NCBI RefSeq assembly: GCF_000379445.1
Contig: NZ_KB902274.1
Coordinates: 62,001 to 126,000, forward strand
Direction of reading: 5' to 3'
Source of the DNA: Fangia hongkongensis FSC776 = DSM 21703
Lineage (GTDB): Bacteria; Pseudomonadota; Gammaproteobacteria; Francisellales; Francisellaceae
DNA length: 64,000 nucleotides
The notes beneath the pieces are model-generated. The model was not told the origin of the DNA and searched no databases. It worked only from the letters and a program-made list of their open reading frames with translations. Shown here in pieces: positions 3,190 through 33,421 of the stretch; the first letter of the stretch is position 1, and the number at the start of each line of letters is the position of its first letter. The position numbers and the translations under genes are program-made.

Positions 3190-4227
3190 ATGAGAATATG
3201 TTTTATAATGTATCCATGGGATAGAGTGGACCCGCAAACAGACTCCACTATTAGGCTCATTCATGAGTGTGTTAAAAGAGAGCATACGGTTGCAATTACA
3301 ACACCAAATAACTTAACAATCAGAGATAGTGTAGCTCAAGTATATGCTGATGTTTTTACTAAGGGAGCGAAGCTTAGTAATAGCATGGTTTCTTTTTATA
3401 AAAATGCAGTTTTTAAGCGTTGCCAGTTACCTTTGTCTGGTTTTGATGTGATTTTCATGAGAAGTAACCCGCCTTTGGACATGCTTGCTTTAAATTTTCT
3501 TGATTCTGTTGACTCGGGAACGTTTATTATGAATGACCTTAATGGATTGAGAATAGCAAACAATAAACTCTATACATCTTCATTTGATGATGAGGAAAAT
3601 AGGTTTATTCCCGTCACTCATGCATCAAAAAATAGAGAGTATCTTGAGCGAGTGCTTAAAGATTCACCTCAAGATAAAATGATTTTGAAGCCATTAAATG
3701 GCTATGGTGGTGAAGGCGTGATTGTTGTTGAAAAAAAAGCATCATCGAACTTCCGCTCATTGTTGGATTTTTATATTGGAGATAAAAATAAAACGGGCAA
3801 CTATGTTATTCTGCAGGAATATGTTGAGGGCGCTGAGAAAGGGGATGTGAGAATTTTAATGCTGAATGGAGAGCCTATTGGTGCAATGAAGCGTGTTCCG
3901 GCTGAAAATGATTTGCGTTCCAATGTGCATGCAGGTGGTCGTGTTGAAAAACATATTCTATCAAAGGAAGAAAAAGAATTATGTAAACTTATTGGACCAA
4001 AGTTAGTACAGGATGGTCTTTATTTCGTTGGTATTGATGTGATCAATGGAAAGTTAATTGAGGTAAATGTACAAAGCCCTGGTGGTATATCGCGGATAAA
4101 CAAGTTAAATGGAGTTAAGTTGCAGAAAAAAGTAATTGATTTTCTAGAGACAATTGTAACCAGTAGAAAAATAGCTATAGAAAGAAGAAAGTTATTTACC
4201 AAGGTGATAGATGATGTTAACTCTTGA
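3190..4227 (+). CDS. GshB-like ATP-grasp ligase
   Basis: A 345-residue ATP-grasp protein resembling glutathione synthetase (GshB). Shared features: FDVIFMRSNPP (GshB has DVILMRKDPP), the ATP-binding ILKPLNGYGGEGV, QEYVEGAEKGDVRILMLNGEP, the Mg2+ site in FVGIDVINGKLIEVNVQSPGGI, and HAGGR. ATP-grasp ligases join a carboxylate to an amine through an acyl phosphate. The next gene overlaps by 17 bp and encodes an amidohydrolase/metallopeptidase fusion. That conserved pairing suggests a ligase working with these hydrolases on a shared peptide-like substrate rather than housekeeping glutathione synthesis. True GshB activity is possible; no gshA is in the window. Confidence 0.75.
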   Translation: MRICFIMYPWDRVDPQTDSTIRLIHECVKREHTVAITTPNNLTIRDSVAQVYADVFTKGAKLSNSMVSFYKNAVFKRCQLPLSGFDVIFMRSNPPLDMLALNFLDSVDSGTFIMNDLNGLRIANNKLYTSSFDDEENRFIPVTHASKNREYLERVLKDSPQDKMILKPLNGYGGEGVIVVEKKASSNFRSLLDFYIGDKNKTGNYVILQEYVEGAEKGDVRILMLNGEPIGAMKRVPAENDLRSNVHAGGRVEKHILSKEEKELCKLIGPKLVQDGLYFVGIDVINGKLIEVNVQSPGGISRINKLNGVKLQKKVIDFLETIVTSRKIAIERRKLFTKVIDDVNS

Positions 4228-6196
4228 TGAAGATGAAATTATTCAGAAAATAAAAAATAATGAATGCTTTAGTGCTCAAAATAGCACGGGTTCATTTGTT
4301 ATTACTATTAATGCATATGTTCCTTATTTAGCAACAGCTATTCATGCAGGGAAACAGATTAGTAAAGAAATGGAAGACTGCTATACAGTAGATGAAAAAG
4401 AGCGTTTATTTGAAGAAGACCCCTATACGGATGAGTTTATATTTGGATTGCCCATTACACTTGTAGCAAAGGATTCTCGATTTAGCTATGATCTTAACAG
4501 GTCAATTGACCAGTGTGTTTACGATACGGCATGGGGAAAAACAGTCTGGAAAAAACCAATTACAGATAAAATGAGAGATGAGCTCTATAGCCGTCATAGT
4601 AAATATTATAAAATATTGAAAGCCCTTGTGTCTAAATTAGAGTCGTTATACTCGAAGTGTTACATTTTTGATATTCATAGTTATAATTATCAAAGAATCA
4701 CAACGGTGCAAACACCAACTTTTAACTTAGGCTCATTTTACTGTCAGCATCGATATCAATCAGAAGTTGAACGCTTTGTAGCGGATTTAGGCAAAATTGT
4801 ACTCCCTAACCTTGATACAACAGTTGAAGTCAATAATGTATTTGAAGGGAAGGGCTACCAAGCTTTCTTTATTAATAAATTCTTTAAGCATACTTGCCTG
4901 TTCCCAGTAGAAATTAAAAAAGTTTTTATGGATGAAAATGAAGGCATTCCTTACCCGTTAGTTATAGAAGAAGTCGCTAAAGAATTGCAAAGAGCCATAA
5001 AATCTTTTGTTGATAAGAGTCAGAAAAAATCATCTGCTATGTCAGTTGGAAAACATAGAGTTGATAAGGAGGTAATTGCTTTAGATAAAAAGCTTTTTCA
5101 GCTTTCAAGGAAAATCGATGTCTTGTACTATGTTAATCCCATTAATTATGAATCGGAAAAGCGTAAATTTTTTAAAAATCCCATGAGTTACTATCCGGAT
5201 TTCAAATATCGCCAATTAAAAATTGATCCCTTTGATTTTAGAGAAAAACTATATAAGCTCCCAGTTTCTAACGTAAGCTCTCCGACATTACGACAACTAT
5301 ACCGTGAAGTTATTGATTCTATCGCCTTAGATGTGGACTTAATTACAAGTGTCGGTACAGAAAGTTTTTTTTATAATTCCTTAAGGATATATGGCGAGCC
5401 GAATAATAGAGATATTAATAATGCAAAGTTTTTATTGTATGCTCCAGCGAGTTGTCATCAAGACAAAAAGGTTGTTTCTGCTGAGGAAATTATTCATTTA
5501 TTTGAAGAGAGTATTCAGCATTATGATATCCCATTTCAAATCAGGCTATCAGACCAGATTATTGCTAAGGCAATGGTTGATAATACAAAAAAAATGGTCC
5601 TGATTAATAAAAGAGCACAGTTAACACGAACTGAGCTTTTAGCTTTGATACATCATGAGGTTGGAGTGCATGCGGTTACTACTAGTAATGCAGAGAGGCA
5701 GCCATTATCTATTTACCGTTTGGGCTTGCCAAATAATACGCATACACAAGAAGGCTTAGCCATTTATAGTGAGTATCTTTCCGGTAACTTAACATTGGAG
5801 AGGTTGCAGGAGCTGGCATTGCGAGTTGTCGCCGTTGATCATATGATTAAACACCAAAATTTTATCAAAACGTATCAGTACATACTAACAAACTATAAAG
5901 ATGATAAAGAATTTTGTTTCAAACTGGTGTCACGTGTTTATCGTGGTGGGGGCTTTAGTAAAGACTTTCTGTATTTAAGTGGGCTTAGAGATATCATTAA
6001 AAATATAACACATCCAAATTTCAATCTACTATTTTCAGGTAAAACAAGCTTGCAATACCTTGATCTTTTGCAACTCTTAGCTCAAGAGGGGTATTTAGTC
6101 TCTCCACATCTTATGCCTATTAGTTATCACGATAAGATACAAAAAAAAGACAAAGATCGTATCATCATCGATTATTTAATAGAGTCCATTCGGTAA
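4211..6196 (+). CDS. Fusion: N-formylglutamate amidohydrolase-like domain + QEGLA (DUF1704/MATCAP-type) metallopeptidase domain
   Basis: 661 residues in two parts. Residues ~25-260 resemble the N-formylglutamate amidohydrolase (HutG-type) zinc fold: IHAG near 44-47, SYDLNR at 92-97 and FDIHSYN at 153-159. Residues ~285-650 match the QEGLA/DUF1704 family, related to the tubulin tyrosine carboxypeptidase MATCAP. The zinc motif HHEVGVH is at 481-487 (ligands H482 and H487, base E483), and the name-giving QEGLA is at 513-517, where E514 is the likely third ligand. Related bacterial families are usually annotated as separate genes. Start: an AAGGTGAT ribosome site is followed by two tandem ATGs (4211, 4214). 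Substrate unknown. Confidence 0.75.
   Translation: MMLTLDEDEIIQKIKNNECFSAQNSTGSFVITINAYVPYLATAIHAGKQISKEMEDCYTVDEKERLFEEDPYTDEFIFGLPITLVAKDSRFSYDLNRSIDQCVYDTAWGKTVWKKPITDKMRDELYSRHSKYYKILKALVSKLESLYSKCYIFDIHSYNYQRITTVQTPTFNLGSFYCQHRYQSEVERFVADLGKIVLPNLDTTVEVNNVFEGKGYQAFFINKFFKHTCLFPVEIKKVFMDENEGIPYPLVIEEVAKELQRAIKSFVDKSQKKSSAMSVGKHRVDKEVIALDKKLFQLSRKIDVLYYVNPINYESEKRKFFKNPMSYYPDFKYRQLKIDPFDFREKLYKLPVSNVSSPTLRQLYREVIDSIALDVDLITSVGTESFFYNSLRIYGEPNNRDINNAKFLLYAPASCHQDKKVVSAEEIIHLFEESIQHYDIPFQIRLSDQIIAKAMVDNTKKMVLINKRAQLTRTELLALIHHEVGVHAVTTSNAERQPLSIYRLGLPNNTHTQEGLAIYSEYLSGNLTLERLQELALRVVAVDHMIKHQNFIKTYQYILTNYKDDKEFCFKLVSRVYRGGGFSKDFLYLSGLRDIIKNITHPNFNLLFSGKTSLQYLDLLQLLAQEGYLVSPHLMPISYHDKIQKKDKDRIIIDYLIESIR
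4847..4854 (+). other. KOPS-like octamer (FtsK orienting sequence), left of dif
   Basis: GGGAAGGG on the + strand, matching GGGNAGGG and pointing right, toward dif. Inside the QEGLA fusion gene. Confidence 0.35.
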
Positions 6197-8465: not shown

Positions 8466-8498
8466 TGTAAATAGACTAATAAACAACGGAGAAAACAT

Positions 8499-8765
8499 AT
8501 GTTAAGCACCGAACAAAAACAAGCAATCGTTGCTGAGTATCAGCAAGCAGAAGGTGATACGGGCTCACCAGAAGTGCAAGTTGCGCTTTTAACTGCACGT
8601 ATTACAGATTTACAAGGCCACTTTAAAAATCACAAGCAAGATTTCCACTCAAGACGTGGATTATTGCGCCTTGTTAGTCAACGCCGTAAGTTGTTAGATT
8701 ATCTTAAAGGTAAAGACATTGATCGTTACCGTTCACTTATCAAGCGTTTAGAATTACGTAGATAA
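8499..8765 (+). CDS. rpsO: 30S ribosomal protein S15
   Basis: 88 residues, the standard length. S15 binds 16S rRNA in the central domain early in 30S assembly. The conserved segments [44 protein letters not shown] and [12 protein letters not shown] are all there. A GGAG ribosome site precedes the ATG. It is followed by pnp after 48 bp, the usual bacterial rpsO-pnp order. Confidence 0.98.
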
Positions 8766-8813
8766 TTGATTAAAGATAATTGGAAATAAGGATAATATTA
8801 AGGTATACACATT

Positions 8814-10889
8814 GTGAAAATTTATAAAGAAGTCTTCCAACTAGGTAACACTGAATACTCGATTGAAACTGGGGGTATTGCTCGTCAGGCGACAGGGTCT
8901 GTACTTGTTAGTGCAGGAGATACGGTTGTTTTGGTGACAGCAGTTGCAAAAAAAGAAGTTAAAGATGGTGCTGATTTTTTCCCATTGACAGTTAACTATC
9001 AAGAAAAGTCTTATGCAGCTGGAAAAATCCCTGGTGGATTCCCACGTCGAGAAGGTAGACCTGGTGAAGCTGAAACGTTAACGGCACGTTTAATCGACCG
9101 TCCGTTACGCCCGCTTTTTCCGGAAGGCTTTTATAATGAAGTGCAAGTCGTTGCCACAGTATTATCATTTGATCCAGAGGTTCCACCAGATATTCCAGCG
9201 CTGATCGGTGCTTCGGCCTCGTTGGTTTTATCTGGTGTACCTTTTGAAGGCCCTATTGCAGGGGTTCGTGTTGGTTTTATTGATGGCCAATATGTATTGA
9301 ATCCATCTTTGGATGCACAGAAAAAATCGGAGTTAGATCTTGTTGTTGCAGGAACATCTGATGCTGTGTTGATGGTTGAATCAGAAGCTGAAAGTTTACC
9401 AGAAGAGGTAATGCTTGGCGCCGTTTTGTATGGCCATAAAGAGATGCAGGTGATTATTGATGCAATTAATCATTTAGCAGAGTATGCAGCAAAACCACGT
9501 TGGGATTATGAGCCTAAGAAAGAAAATAAGGCATTAAAAGAGCAAATTAAGTCGAAATTTTTCAGTAAGATTAAATCAGCATATGAAGAGACTGAAAAAC
9601 AAAAACGTAATGCTTGCATAAATACACTCAGACAAGAAGTTATTGAGGCAATTGTTGCCGATGAAAATGAAGCTGAAGAAGTTTCCGTTGATGAAATCAA
9701 AGATGTATTTCATAGCATAGAGAAAGATTTAGTTAGAAAAAATATTCTAGCTGGTAGTCCAAGAATTGATGGACGTGATACGCGTACTGTTCGCCCAATT
9801 AGTGTGAGAACTGGCGTTATTCCTAAAGCGCACGGCTCAGCACTTTTTACCCGTGGAGAAACCCAAGCACTTGTGGTCACTACATTAGGTAATGATAGAG
9901 ATGCTCAGCTAATTGAAAATTTAAATGGTGATTTGAAAAATCGCTATATGTTACATTATAACTTTCCACCTTATTCAGTAGGTGAAACAGGGATGATGGG
10001 CACGCCAAAGCGTCGTGAGATCGGTCATGCTAATTTGGCCAAACGTGCAACACAGGCAGTGTTTCCAAATGAAGCTGTTTATCCATACGTTGTACGTGTG
10101 GTATCTGAAATTACAGAGTCAAATGGCTCAAGTTCTATGGCAACTGTTTGCGGATCATCATTATCAATGATGGATGCAGGTGTGCCACTTGCCGCTCCGG
10201 TTGCAGGTATTGCAATGGGGCTTATTAAAGAGGGCGATAAGTTTGCTGTGTTATCAGATATCCTAGGTGATGAAGATCATCTTGGCGATATGGACTTTAA
10301 AGTAGCAGGAACGCAATATGGTGTGACTGCATTACAAATGGATATTAAAATTAAAGGCATTACACGTGAAATTATGCAAGCTGCTTTAGATCAAGCAAAA
10401 GAAGGTCGTTTGCATATTTTAGGTATTATGAATGAAGTGATTTCTGAGTATAAAACAGAGACCTCAGCACATGCTCCTCAGGTTGAAGTTATTAGTATTG
10501 ATCCATCGAAAATACGTGATGTCATTGGTAAAGGTGGCGCGACAGTAAAAGGGATTACCGAAAAAACAGGCGCTTCAATCGATACCTCTGATAATGGTGA
10601 TGTAAAGATTTTTGCCAAGAGCAAAGCGTCATTAGAGGCTGCCATTGCTGAAGTGGAGGCATTAACTGCTTCTGCAGAGGTGGGACAAACCTATACAGGC
10701 AAAGTGGTTAAAGTCTTAGATTTTGGTGCTTTTGTGAACATCCTTCCTGGAAAAGATGGTTTGTTGCCATTTTCTGAGCTTGAGTCACTTGGTATCAATC
10801 CAAATACACTTGCAGAAGGCAAGTCGCTTAAAGTTATGGTGCAAAATGTCGACAGAATGGGTAAAATTAAACTAGTCCCATTACAGTAA
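8814..10889 (+). CDS. pnp: Polyribonucleotide nucleotidyltransferase (PNPase)
   Basis: 691 residues from a GTG start. PNPase degrades RNA 3' to 5' phosphorolytically and is a degradosome partner in many gammaproteobacteria. Two RNase PH-like domains are visible: the first with [12 protein letters not shown] and [11 protein letters not shown], the second with [12 protein letters not shown] and a [16 protein letters not shown] active-site stretch. They are followed by a KH domain ([13 protein letters not shown] near residue 570) and an S1 domain from about residue 623 ([15 protein letters not shown]). It lies between rpsO and erpA. Confidence 0.97.
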
Positions 10890-12118: not shown

Positions 12119-12724
12119 ATGAAAGAAATCATGACATTAAGCAATAACTTGGTGCGTTTGGAGCTATTGTCTTATGCGCATTTAGAAGGTTTAGAGCAGG
12201 CAACACAAGATGGTTATCTATGGGAGCTGTGGTTTACAATCGTGCCTACGCCTGAAGACATGAGAGCTGATATTAAGCGTAGACTGAGACTCTATCAACA
12301 AGGTAGCATGTTGCCGTATACAGTTATTTGTCAAAAAAGTGGCAGAATTTTGGGCATGACTAGTTATATGAATATTGATCATGAGCAAAACCGTCTAGAG
12401 ATTGGTAGCACATGGTACGCGAAAGCTGTACACGGTACAGCAATTAATGTTGCCTGTAAGTTGCTTCTTTTGGAACATGCTTTTGAAGTGTTTAAGTGTA
12501 TTGCTGTTGAATTTAGAACACATCATTTGAATTTTGCATCGCGACGCGCCATAGAATCCATAGGTGCCAAATTGGATGGTATTCTGCGTAATCATCGCAA
12601 GATGCACAACGGCACACTACGTGATACTTGTGTTTATAGTATTATTGATTCTGAGTGGAAAACTATCAAAGCACATTTGAATTATAAGCTAATGGCAAAG
12701 CAGAGGAAATCAGCTGAAATCTAA
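12119..12724 (+). CDS. GNAT-family N-acetyltransferase (RimL-like)
   Basis: 201 residues of the RimJ/RimL-type acetyl-CoA-dependent acetyltransferase fold. Typical pieces are visible: NNLVRLELLSYAHLEGLEQA at the start, GMTSYMNIDHEQNRLEIGSTWY in the central strands, and NFASRRAIESIGAKLDGILRNH, the usual C-terminal motif. Substrate unknown; relatives acetylate protein N-termini, small amines or antibiotics. An in-frame ATG at 12131 is an alternative start. It overlaps convergent YqhA by 4 bp. Confidence 0.75.
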   Translation: MKEIMTLSNNLVRLELLSYAHLEGLEQATQDGYLWELWFTIVPTPEDMRADIKRRLRLYQQGSMLPYTVICQKSGRILGMTSYMNIDHEQNRLEIGSTWYAKAVHGTAINVACKLLLLEHAFEVFKCIAVEFRTHHLNFASRRAIESIGAKLDGILRNHRKMHNGTLRDTCVYSIIDSEWKTIKAHLNYKLMAKQRKSAEI

Positions 12725-13272
12725 TGTGGTTTATGAACTTTATGTTCAAGCCAGCCTGTAAAGGCAATCATAATGGCTGAAAATACAAAAACAAGGTGAA
12801 TAATCACATTCCATAAAAGCTCTCTATCAGAGATATGTGCAATATCTAAAAATTGCTTTAGCAGTGAAATGGAGGATATCGCTACAATTGACCCTGCAAT
12901 TTTCATCTTAACACCGGTAGGGGAAAGCTTTTTAATCCAAATTGGTTCTCCTTTATCATGGGCAACGTCTATTTTGGAGACAAAGTTCTCATAGCCGCTT
13001 ATTACAACAACGACAACCAAATTTGCAACTAAAGCAGCATCACATAAAGTCAGTGCAAATACGATAAGCTCGTGACCGCCAAAGTCTTTAATATTAATCA
13101 GCATCATTATGACAGACTTAGAGATGTCAAAAACAAAAGCTAAAAGTACCAATGACAAGACAAGATAAATGGGCGCTTGCAGCCATCGACTGGAAAAAAC
13201 AACTTTTTCAATACCCGTTTCAACTTTAGAGATTTTTCTAATACTATTATCAGTGTTAAGATTATTATCCAT
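12721..13272 (-). CDS. yqhA: UPF0114 family membrane protein YqhA
   Basis: 183 residues with the UPF0114/TIGR00645 pattern: EKVVFSSRWLQAPIYLVLSLVLLAFVFDI near the start, then hydrophobic segments near residues 35-60, 75-100, 125-145 and 155-175, with the family stretch VANLVVVVVISGYENFVS. Inner-membrane protein of unknown function. It is convergent with the GNAT gene and its 5' side faces the dif region. Confidence 0.88.
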   Translation of the reverse strand: MDNNLNTDNSIRKISKVETGIEKVVFSSRWLQAPIYLVLSLVLLAFVFDISKSVIMMLINIKDFGGHELIVFALTLCDAALVANLVVVVVISGYENFVSKIDVAHDKGEPIWIKKLSPTGVKMKIAGSIVAISSISLLKQFLDIAHISDRELLWNVIIHLVFVFSAIMIAFTGWLEHKVHKPH

Positions 13273-13406
13273 TTAAATTCTATTATGTAGTAGTGTGTTT
13301 TAAATACATAGCAATATTGTAGAGCAACAGTAATCAGCATTAAATAATTTATTGCAATAAAGGATAAAAAATCTATATCTATCAGAGGATAAGACATAAT
13401 AACATA

Positions 13407-13434
13407 AGTTCGCATAATATATATTATGTTAAAT
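13407..13434 (+). other. dif: Chromosome dimer resolution site dif (XerCD site)
   Basis: 28 bp made of a XerC arm AGTTCGCATAA, centre TATATA and XerD arm TTATGTTAAAT. Against the E. coli dif site it matches 25 of 28 positions: the XerD arm is identical, the XerC arm differs at two outer bases and the centre at one. It lies in non-coding sequence, as dif sites do. XerC and XerD recombine dimeric chromosomes here at division under FtsK control, so this marks the terminus of the replichores. Confidence 0.88.
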
Positions 13435-13490: not shown

Positions 13491-13742
13491 CTATTTAAGA
13501 TTTACTAGATCTACAAAATCAATTACTCTGAGCTTGAATCCTGATGCCTGATTTTCAACAATTATATTATCATTAGTTAAATCTGCATGATAAAAAGATC
13601 GGCGCGATAAATTTTCAGGTCCATGCAGACCTCTCAGCTTATTTATTTCCTTTAATAAAAAATGTATTTCTTCATCATCATCTAGAGCCCTCAGCTTTTC
13701 CCCGCAGTCAAAAACCCAAAAAATGGCATTATCATGGCTTTT
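13491..13742 (-). pseudogene. Remnant of an APH/choline-kinase-like phosphotransferase
   Basis: A minus-strand frame open between a TAG at 13745-13743 and a TAG at 13493-13491, with no usable start codon. Its 83 residues include HDNAIFWVFDCGEKLRAL and the kinase motif FYHADLTNDNIIVEN followed by RVIDFVDL, which matches the HxDxxxxN ... D catalytic pattern of aminoglycoside/choline phosphotransferases. The N-terminal lobe with the ATP lysine is missing, so only the C-terminal catalytic part remains. A degraded gene next to dif fits the terminus as a region of gain and loss. Confidence 0.6.
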
Positions 13743-32824: not shown

Positions 32825-33094
32825 TTATTGAACAGACTCTGCCTTTTCAATGGAAACATATTGACGATTATGCTTGCCACCAATGTGGAATTTTACATAT
32901 CCATCTTCTGTTGCAAAAATAGTGTGATCACGGCCACAACCTGTATTCACACCTGAATGAAATTTAGTACCACGCTGGCGAACAACAATTGTTCCAGCTT
33001 TAACAAATTCACCACCATAACGCTTCACACCTAAATACTTAGGATTCGAATCGCGACCATTTCGTGTACTACCACCTGCTTTCTTATGAGCCAT
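32825..33094 (-). CDS. rpmA: 50S ribosomal protein L27
   Basis: 89 residues. L27 reaches the peptidyl-transferase centre. [45 protein letters not shown] and GRDHTIFA are diagnostic. The N-terminus AHKKAGGS is the normal mature form, without the cleaved extension found in Firmicutes. 15 bp after rplU; obg, often next, is absent here. Confidence 0.98.
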
Positions 33095-33109
33095 TGTTTA
33101 CTCCTTAGA

Positions 33110-33421
33110 TTAACCTTGAATTGCTGTAACTTTAACCGCAGTGTAATACTGACGGTGACCTTGACGCTTCATGCTATGTTTGCGACGACGGAATTTAATA
33201 ATGGTAACTTTTTTATGGCGACCTTGCTCTAACACTTCAGCTGTCACTTTTGCGCCTTCAACAACTGGACTGCCTACTTTAACTTCTTCACCATTTTGTA
33301 GCATTAGCACTTGATCAAACTCGATATTTTCACCAACGCCTTTTTCAATTTTTTCTAATTTAACGACAGCACCTTCAGTTACCTTGTACTGCTTGCCGCC
33401 ACTTTTTATAATTGCAAACAT
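33110..33421 (-). CDS. rplU: 50S ribosomal protein L21
   Basis: 103 residues. L21 binds 23S rRNA with L20. [17 protein letters not shown] and [22 protein letters not shown] are diagnostic. GGAG lies 10 nt before the ATG. First gene of rplU-rpmA; its promoter must lie in 33422-33586. Confidence 0.98.

Follow-up and report, generated by a model that had tools for sequence, protein, structure and literature searches.

The window analysed here, a stretch of 64,000 nucleotides from Fangia hongkongensis FSC776, has a GC content of about 37% and carries, at positions 13407-13434 of the plus strand, the 28-mer AGTTCGCATAATATATATTATGTTAAAT, which is a canonical gammaproteobacterial dif. Two 11-bp arms, the XerC arm (13407-13417, plus strand) and the XerD arm (13424-13434, plus strand), flank a central region of 6 bp (13418-13423, plus strand), as in the proteobacterial dif layout. 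The left neighbour of the site is a UPF0114 gene (12721-13272, minus strand), while about 13500-13720 on the minus strand are occupied by the remnant of a kinase-like gene, which has no intact reading frame and shows weak similarity to APH/choline kinases (E about 0.01, under the curated cut-off). This degraded fragment, which directly adjoins dif, reads HADLTNDNIIVE...VIDFVD; it is a neighbour of the site and no part of its mechanism. An earlier note, made from the letters of this DNA, had described the 28-mer as non-coding, and it is indeed intergenic between the UPF0114 gene and the kinase remnant, unless a mechanical open reading frame of 91 amino acids (13140-13415, minus strand) is counted. 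Promoter and terminator signals at dif show no excess over shuffles, and no RNA or tRNA genes were found within the window. At 3190-6196, a glutathione-synthetase-like gene is followed by a gene for a QEGLA-motif protein.

In nearly all related bacteria, dif is a 28-base spot at the end of replication where XerC and XerD separate joined sister chromosomes. The Fangia site equals E. coli dif at 25 of 28 positions (three mismatches) and has the same XerD arm and the same location at the terminus; the coordinates and match count in the earlier note were exact. Relative to the E. coli site, the outer positions 1 and 4 of the XerC arm are changed, and position 13, in the central region, goes from G to A. 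The published dif of Francisella tularensis Schu 4, CATTCGTATAATATATATTATGTTAAAT, shares the 28-bp layout and has an identical central region and XerD arm, whereas its XerC arm differs from that of Fangia at positions 1, 2 and 7 (PMC2731167).

Cumulative G-C along the whole 138 kb contig that includes the window (C36) climbs as far as window position 12875 and declines beyond it, and this maximum coincides with the breakpoint of a fitted two-segment model. The G fraction of G+C is 0.565 to the left of 12875 and 0.456 to the right. On the scale of this 138 kb contig, rather than of the whole genome, the skew switch is 0.5 kb from dif; for a site placed at random on the contig, the probability of such proximity is about 0.8% (2 x 536 / 138458). 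Skew was computed on this contig, on a second contig (C35) and on stretches of relatives, so that the maximum holds for the one contig of a genome that is a 37-contig draft. On C35, the DnaA C-terminal domain is encoded at 78.9-79.1 kb and the skew minimum of that contig is about 5 kb away, so the sign convention of the skew agrees. In six relatives, the skew maxima, taken within stretches of 40-200 kb, lie 0.6-7.4 kb from the respective dif. Unlike the Fangia site with its 0.5 kb on the contig, the published site of F. tularensis Schu 4 is 44.6 kb from its skew maximum (PMC2731167). Among ten relatives with single-contig genomes, the distance between dnaA and dif amounts to 0.41-0.54 of the genome (G010, 0.536; G012, 0.493; G013, 0.499; G016, 0.490; G017, 0.519; G019, 0.504; G020, 0.413; G025, 0.535; G026, 0.505; G027, 0.523).

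The earlier note had also argued that gene directions fit replication forks converging on dif. Of the 12 predicted genes on the left side, 9 are oriented toward the site. On the right side, the note's minus-strand orientation is not a general rule: 26 plus-strand and 24 minus-strand genes show no strand bias, and gene direction therefore lends no support. The argument thus carries little weight on that side, and the dif reading does not depend on it. Among the gene calls on which it was built, pnp, rplU, rpmA, glyA and an ftsI-type transpeptidase gene proved correct when checked, and rpsO on reading the sequence. Both rpsO-pnp (8484-10889) and rplU-rpmA (32825-33421) are no more than about 20 kb away from the terminus, which is unusual for highly expressed genes.

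The 24-base dif core, with up to three mismatches allowed, occurs once in the draft genome of 2,946,743 bases (37 contigs, 2.95 Mb, listed as 100% complete), in agreement with one dif per chromosome. When the central hexamer was left free, perfect arms were found across the genome at 13407-13434 only. This search also returned 12 further sites at 2-3 mismatches as candidates for a second dif or a pdif; the total of 13 compares with 11 for a reversed control pattern, and since the control yields about as many, these sites are noise. The search for a second dif-like site that the earlier note had proposed thus found none elsewhere in the draft genome. Mobile elements that use XerCD are known to carry dif-like sites, and the 28-mer might accordingly be the attachment site of an integrated IMEX phage or pdif module, with the true dif elsewhere. 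An integrated element would, however, have two flanking sites, and this reading is largely contradicted by the uniqueness of the 28-mer. Against it also stand the position of the 28-mer at the skew switch, its ordinary chromosomal neighbours, and the conservation of the glutathione-synthetase and QEGLA genes in two relatives (G004 and G006), at about 7-10 kb from their own dif; we consider it very improbable.

Conservation extends well beyond Fangia. The exact 28-mer is present in 51 other database contigs, nearly all of them gammaproteobacterial and mainly from Halomonadaceae, SAR86, Thiomicrorhabdus, Endozoicomonas and similar gammaproteobacteria. Within Fangia's family, to which Francisella-like species also belong, the dif core is present as a single copy in 29 of 30 genomes, the sole exception being a genome that is 84% complete. 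The flanks of the 28-mer are variable across the family genomes, except for a T directly after it, in agreement with the variable surroundings that are a general feature of dif (PMC2731167). A chance match, which the AT-rich character of both site and window might suggest, is refuted by this conserved single copy and has a negligible probability, as 100 shuffles gave no site at three mismatches to E. coli dif and the runner-up independent site in the window matches at 19 of 28 positions.

The Fangia genome encodes all the protein partners of dif, namely XerC, XerD and an FtsK that has a gamma domain, and the earlier note's proposal to look for xerC and xerD was thereby borne out. Two of the four phage-integrase family proteins score above the respective NCBIfam cut-offs, one as the XerD equivalog (371 bits; cut-off, 330) and one as XerC (340 bits; cut-off, 335), and the remaining two, below both cut-offs, look like integrases. 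The gamma domain of FtsK scores 98 bits. In E. coli, FtsK is oriented by the motif GGGNAGGG or, more widely defined, RRNAGGGS. On the Fangia contig, the exact GGGNAGGG is rare (3 copies toward dif, 0 away), RRNAGGGS points toward and away from dif 66 and 10 times, respectively, and AGNAGGG does so 21 and 4 times, pointing to dif on both sides, as it also does in relatives. Pooled over six species, the ratio for AGNAGGG is 106:10, and it is the most polar among 15 letter permutations. Polar KOPS-like motifs are thus directed toward dif, though base skew supplies part of this polarity, and AGNAGGG is therefore a candidate rather than a demonstrated KOPS. That the FtsK-orienting motif of Fangia's family has shifted from GGGNAGGG toward AGNAGGG, as a lineage-specific KOPS variant of low-GC genomes, is a tentative and rather doubtful suggestion.

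Taken together, positions 13407-13434 are almost certainly the chromosomal dif of Fangia, an ordinary site for chromosome dimer resolution by the XerCD/dif/FtsK system. What is observed is the site itself, its occurrence as a single copy, its place at the switch in skew, genes for the three partner proteins and the polarity of the motifs; the biochemical steps would follow those known from E. coli. Replication forks would meet in the dif region, and an odd number of crossovers would give rise to dimeric chromosomes to be resolved at dif. Septal FtsK would translocate DNA toward the site with polar KOPS-like motifs as a guide, and its gamma domain would activate XerD on the right arm; strand exchange by XerC and XerD would span the 6 bp between the two arms. 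The claim of the earlier note that dif places the chromosome terminus in this window is supported by the skew maximum, the uniqueness of the site and the presence of both xerC and xerD. The Fangia dif adds no new biology, being a standard site in a standard place. For a genus represented by one genome in this comparison, it gives the draft chromosome a defined replication terminus, which makes the contigs easier to orient.
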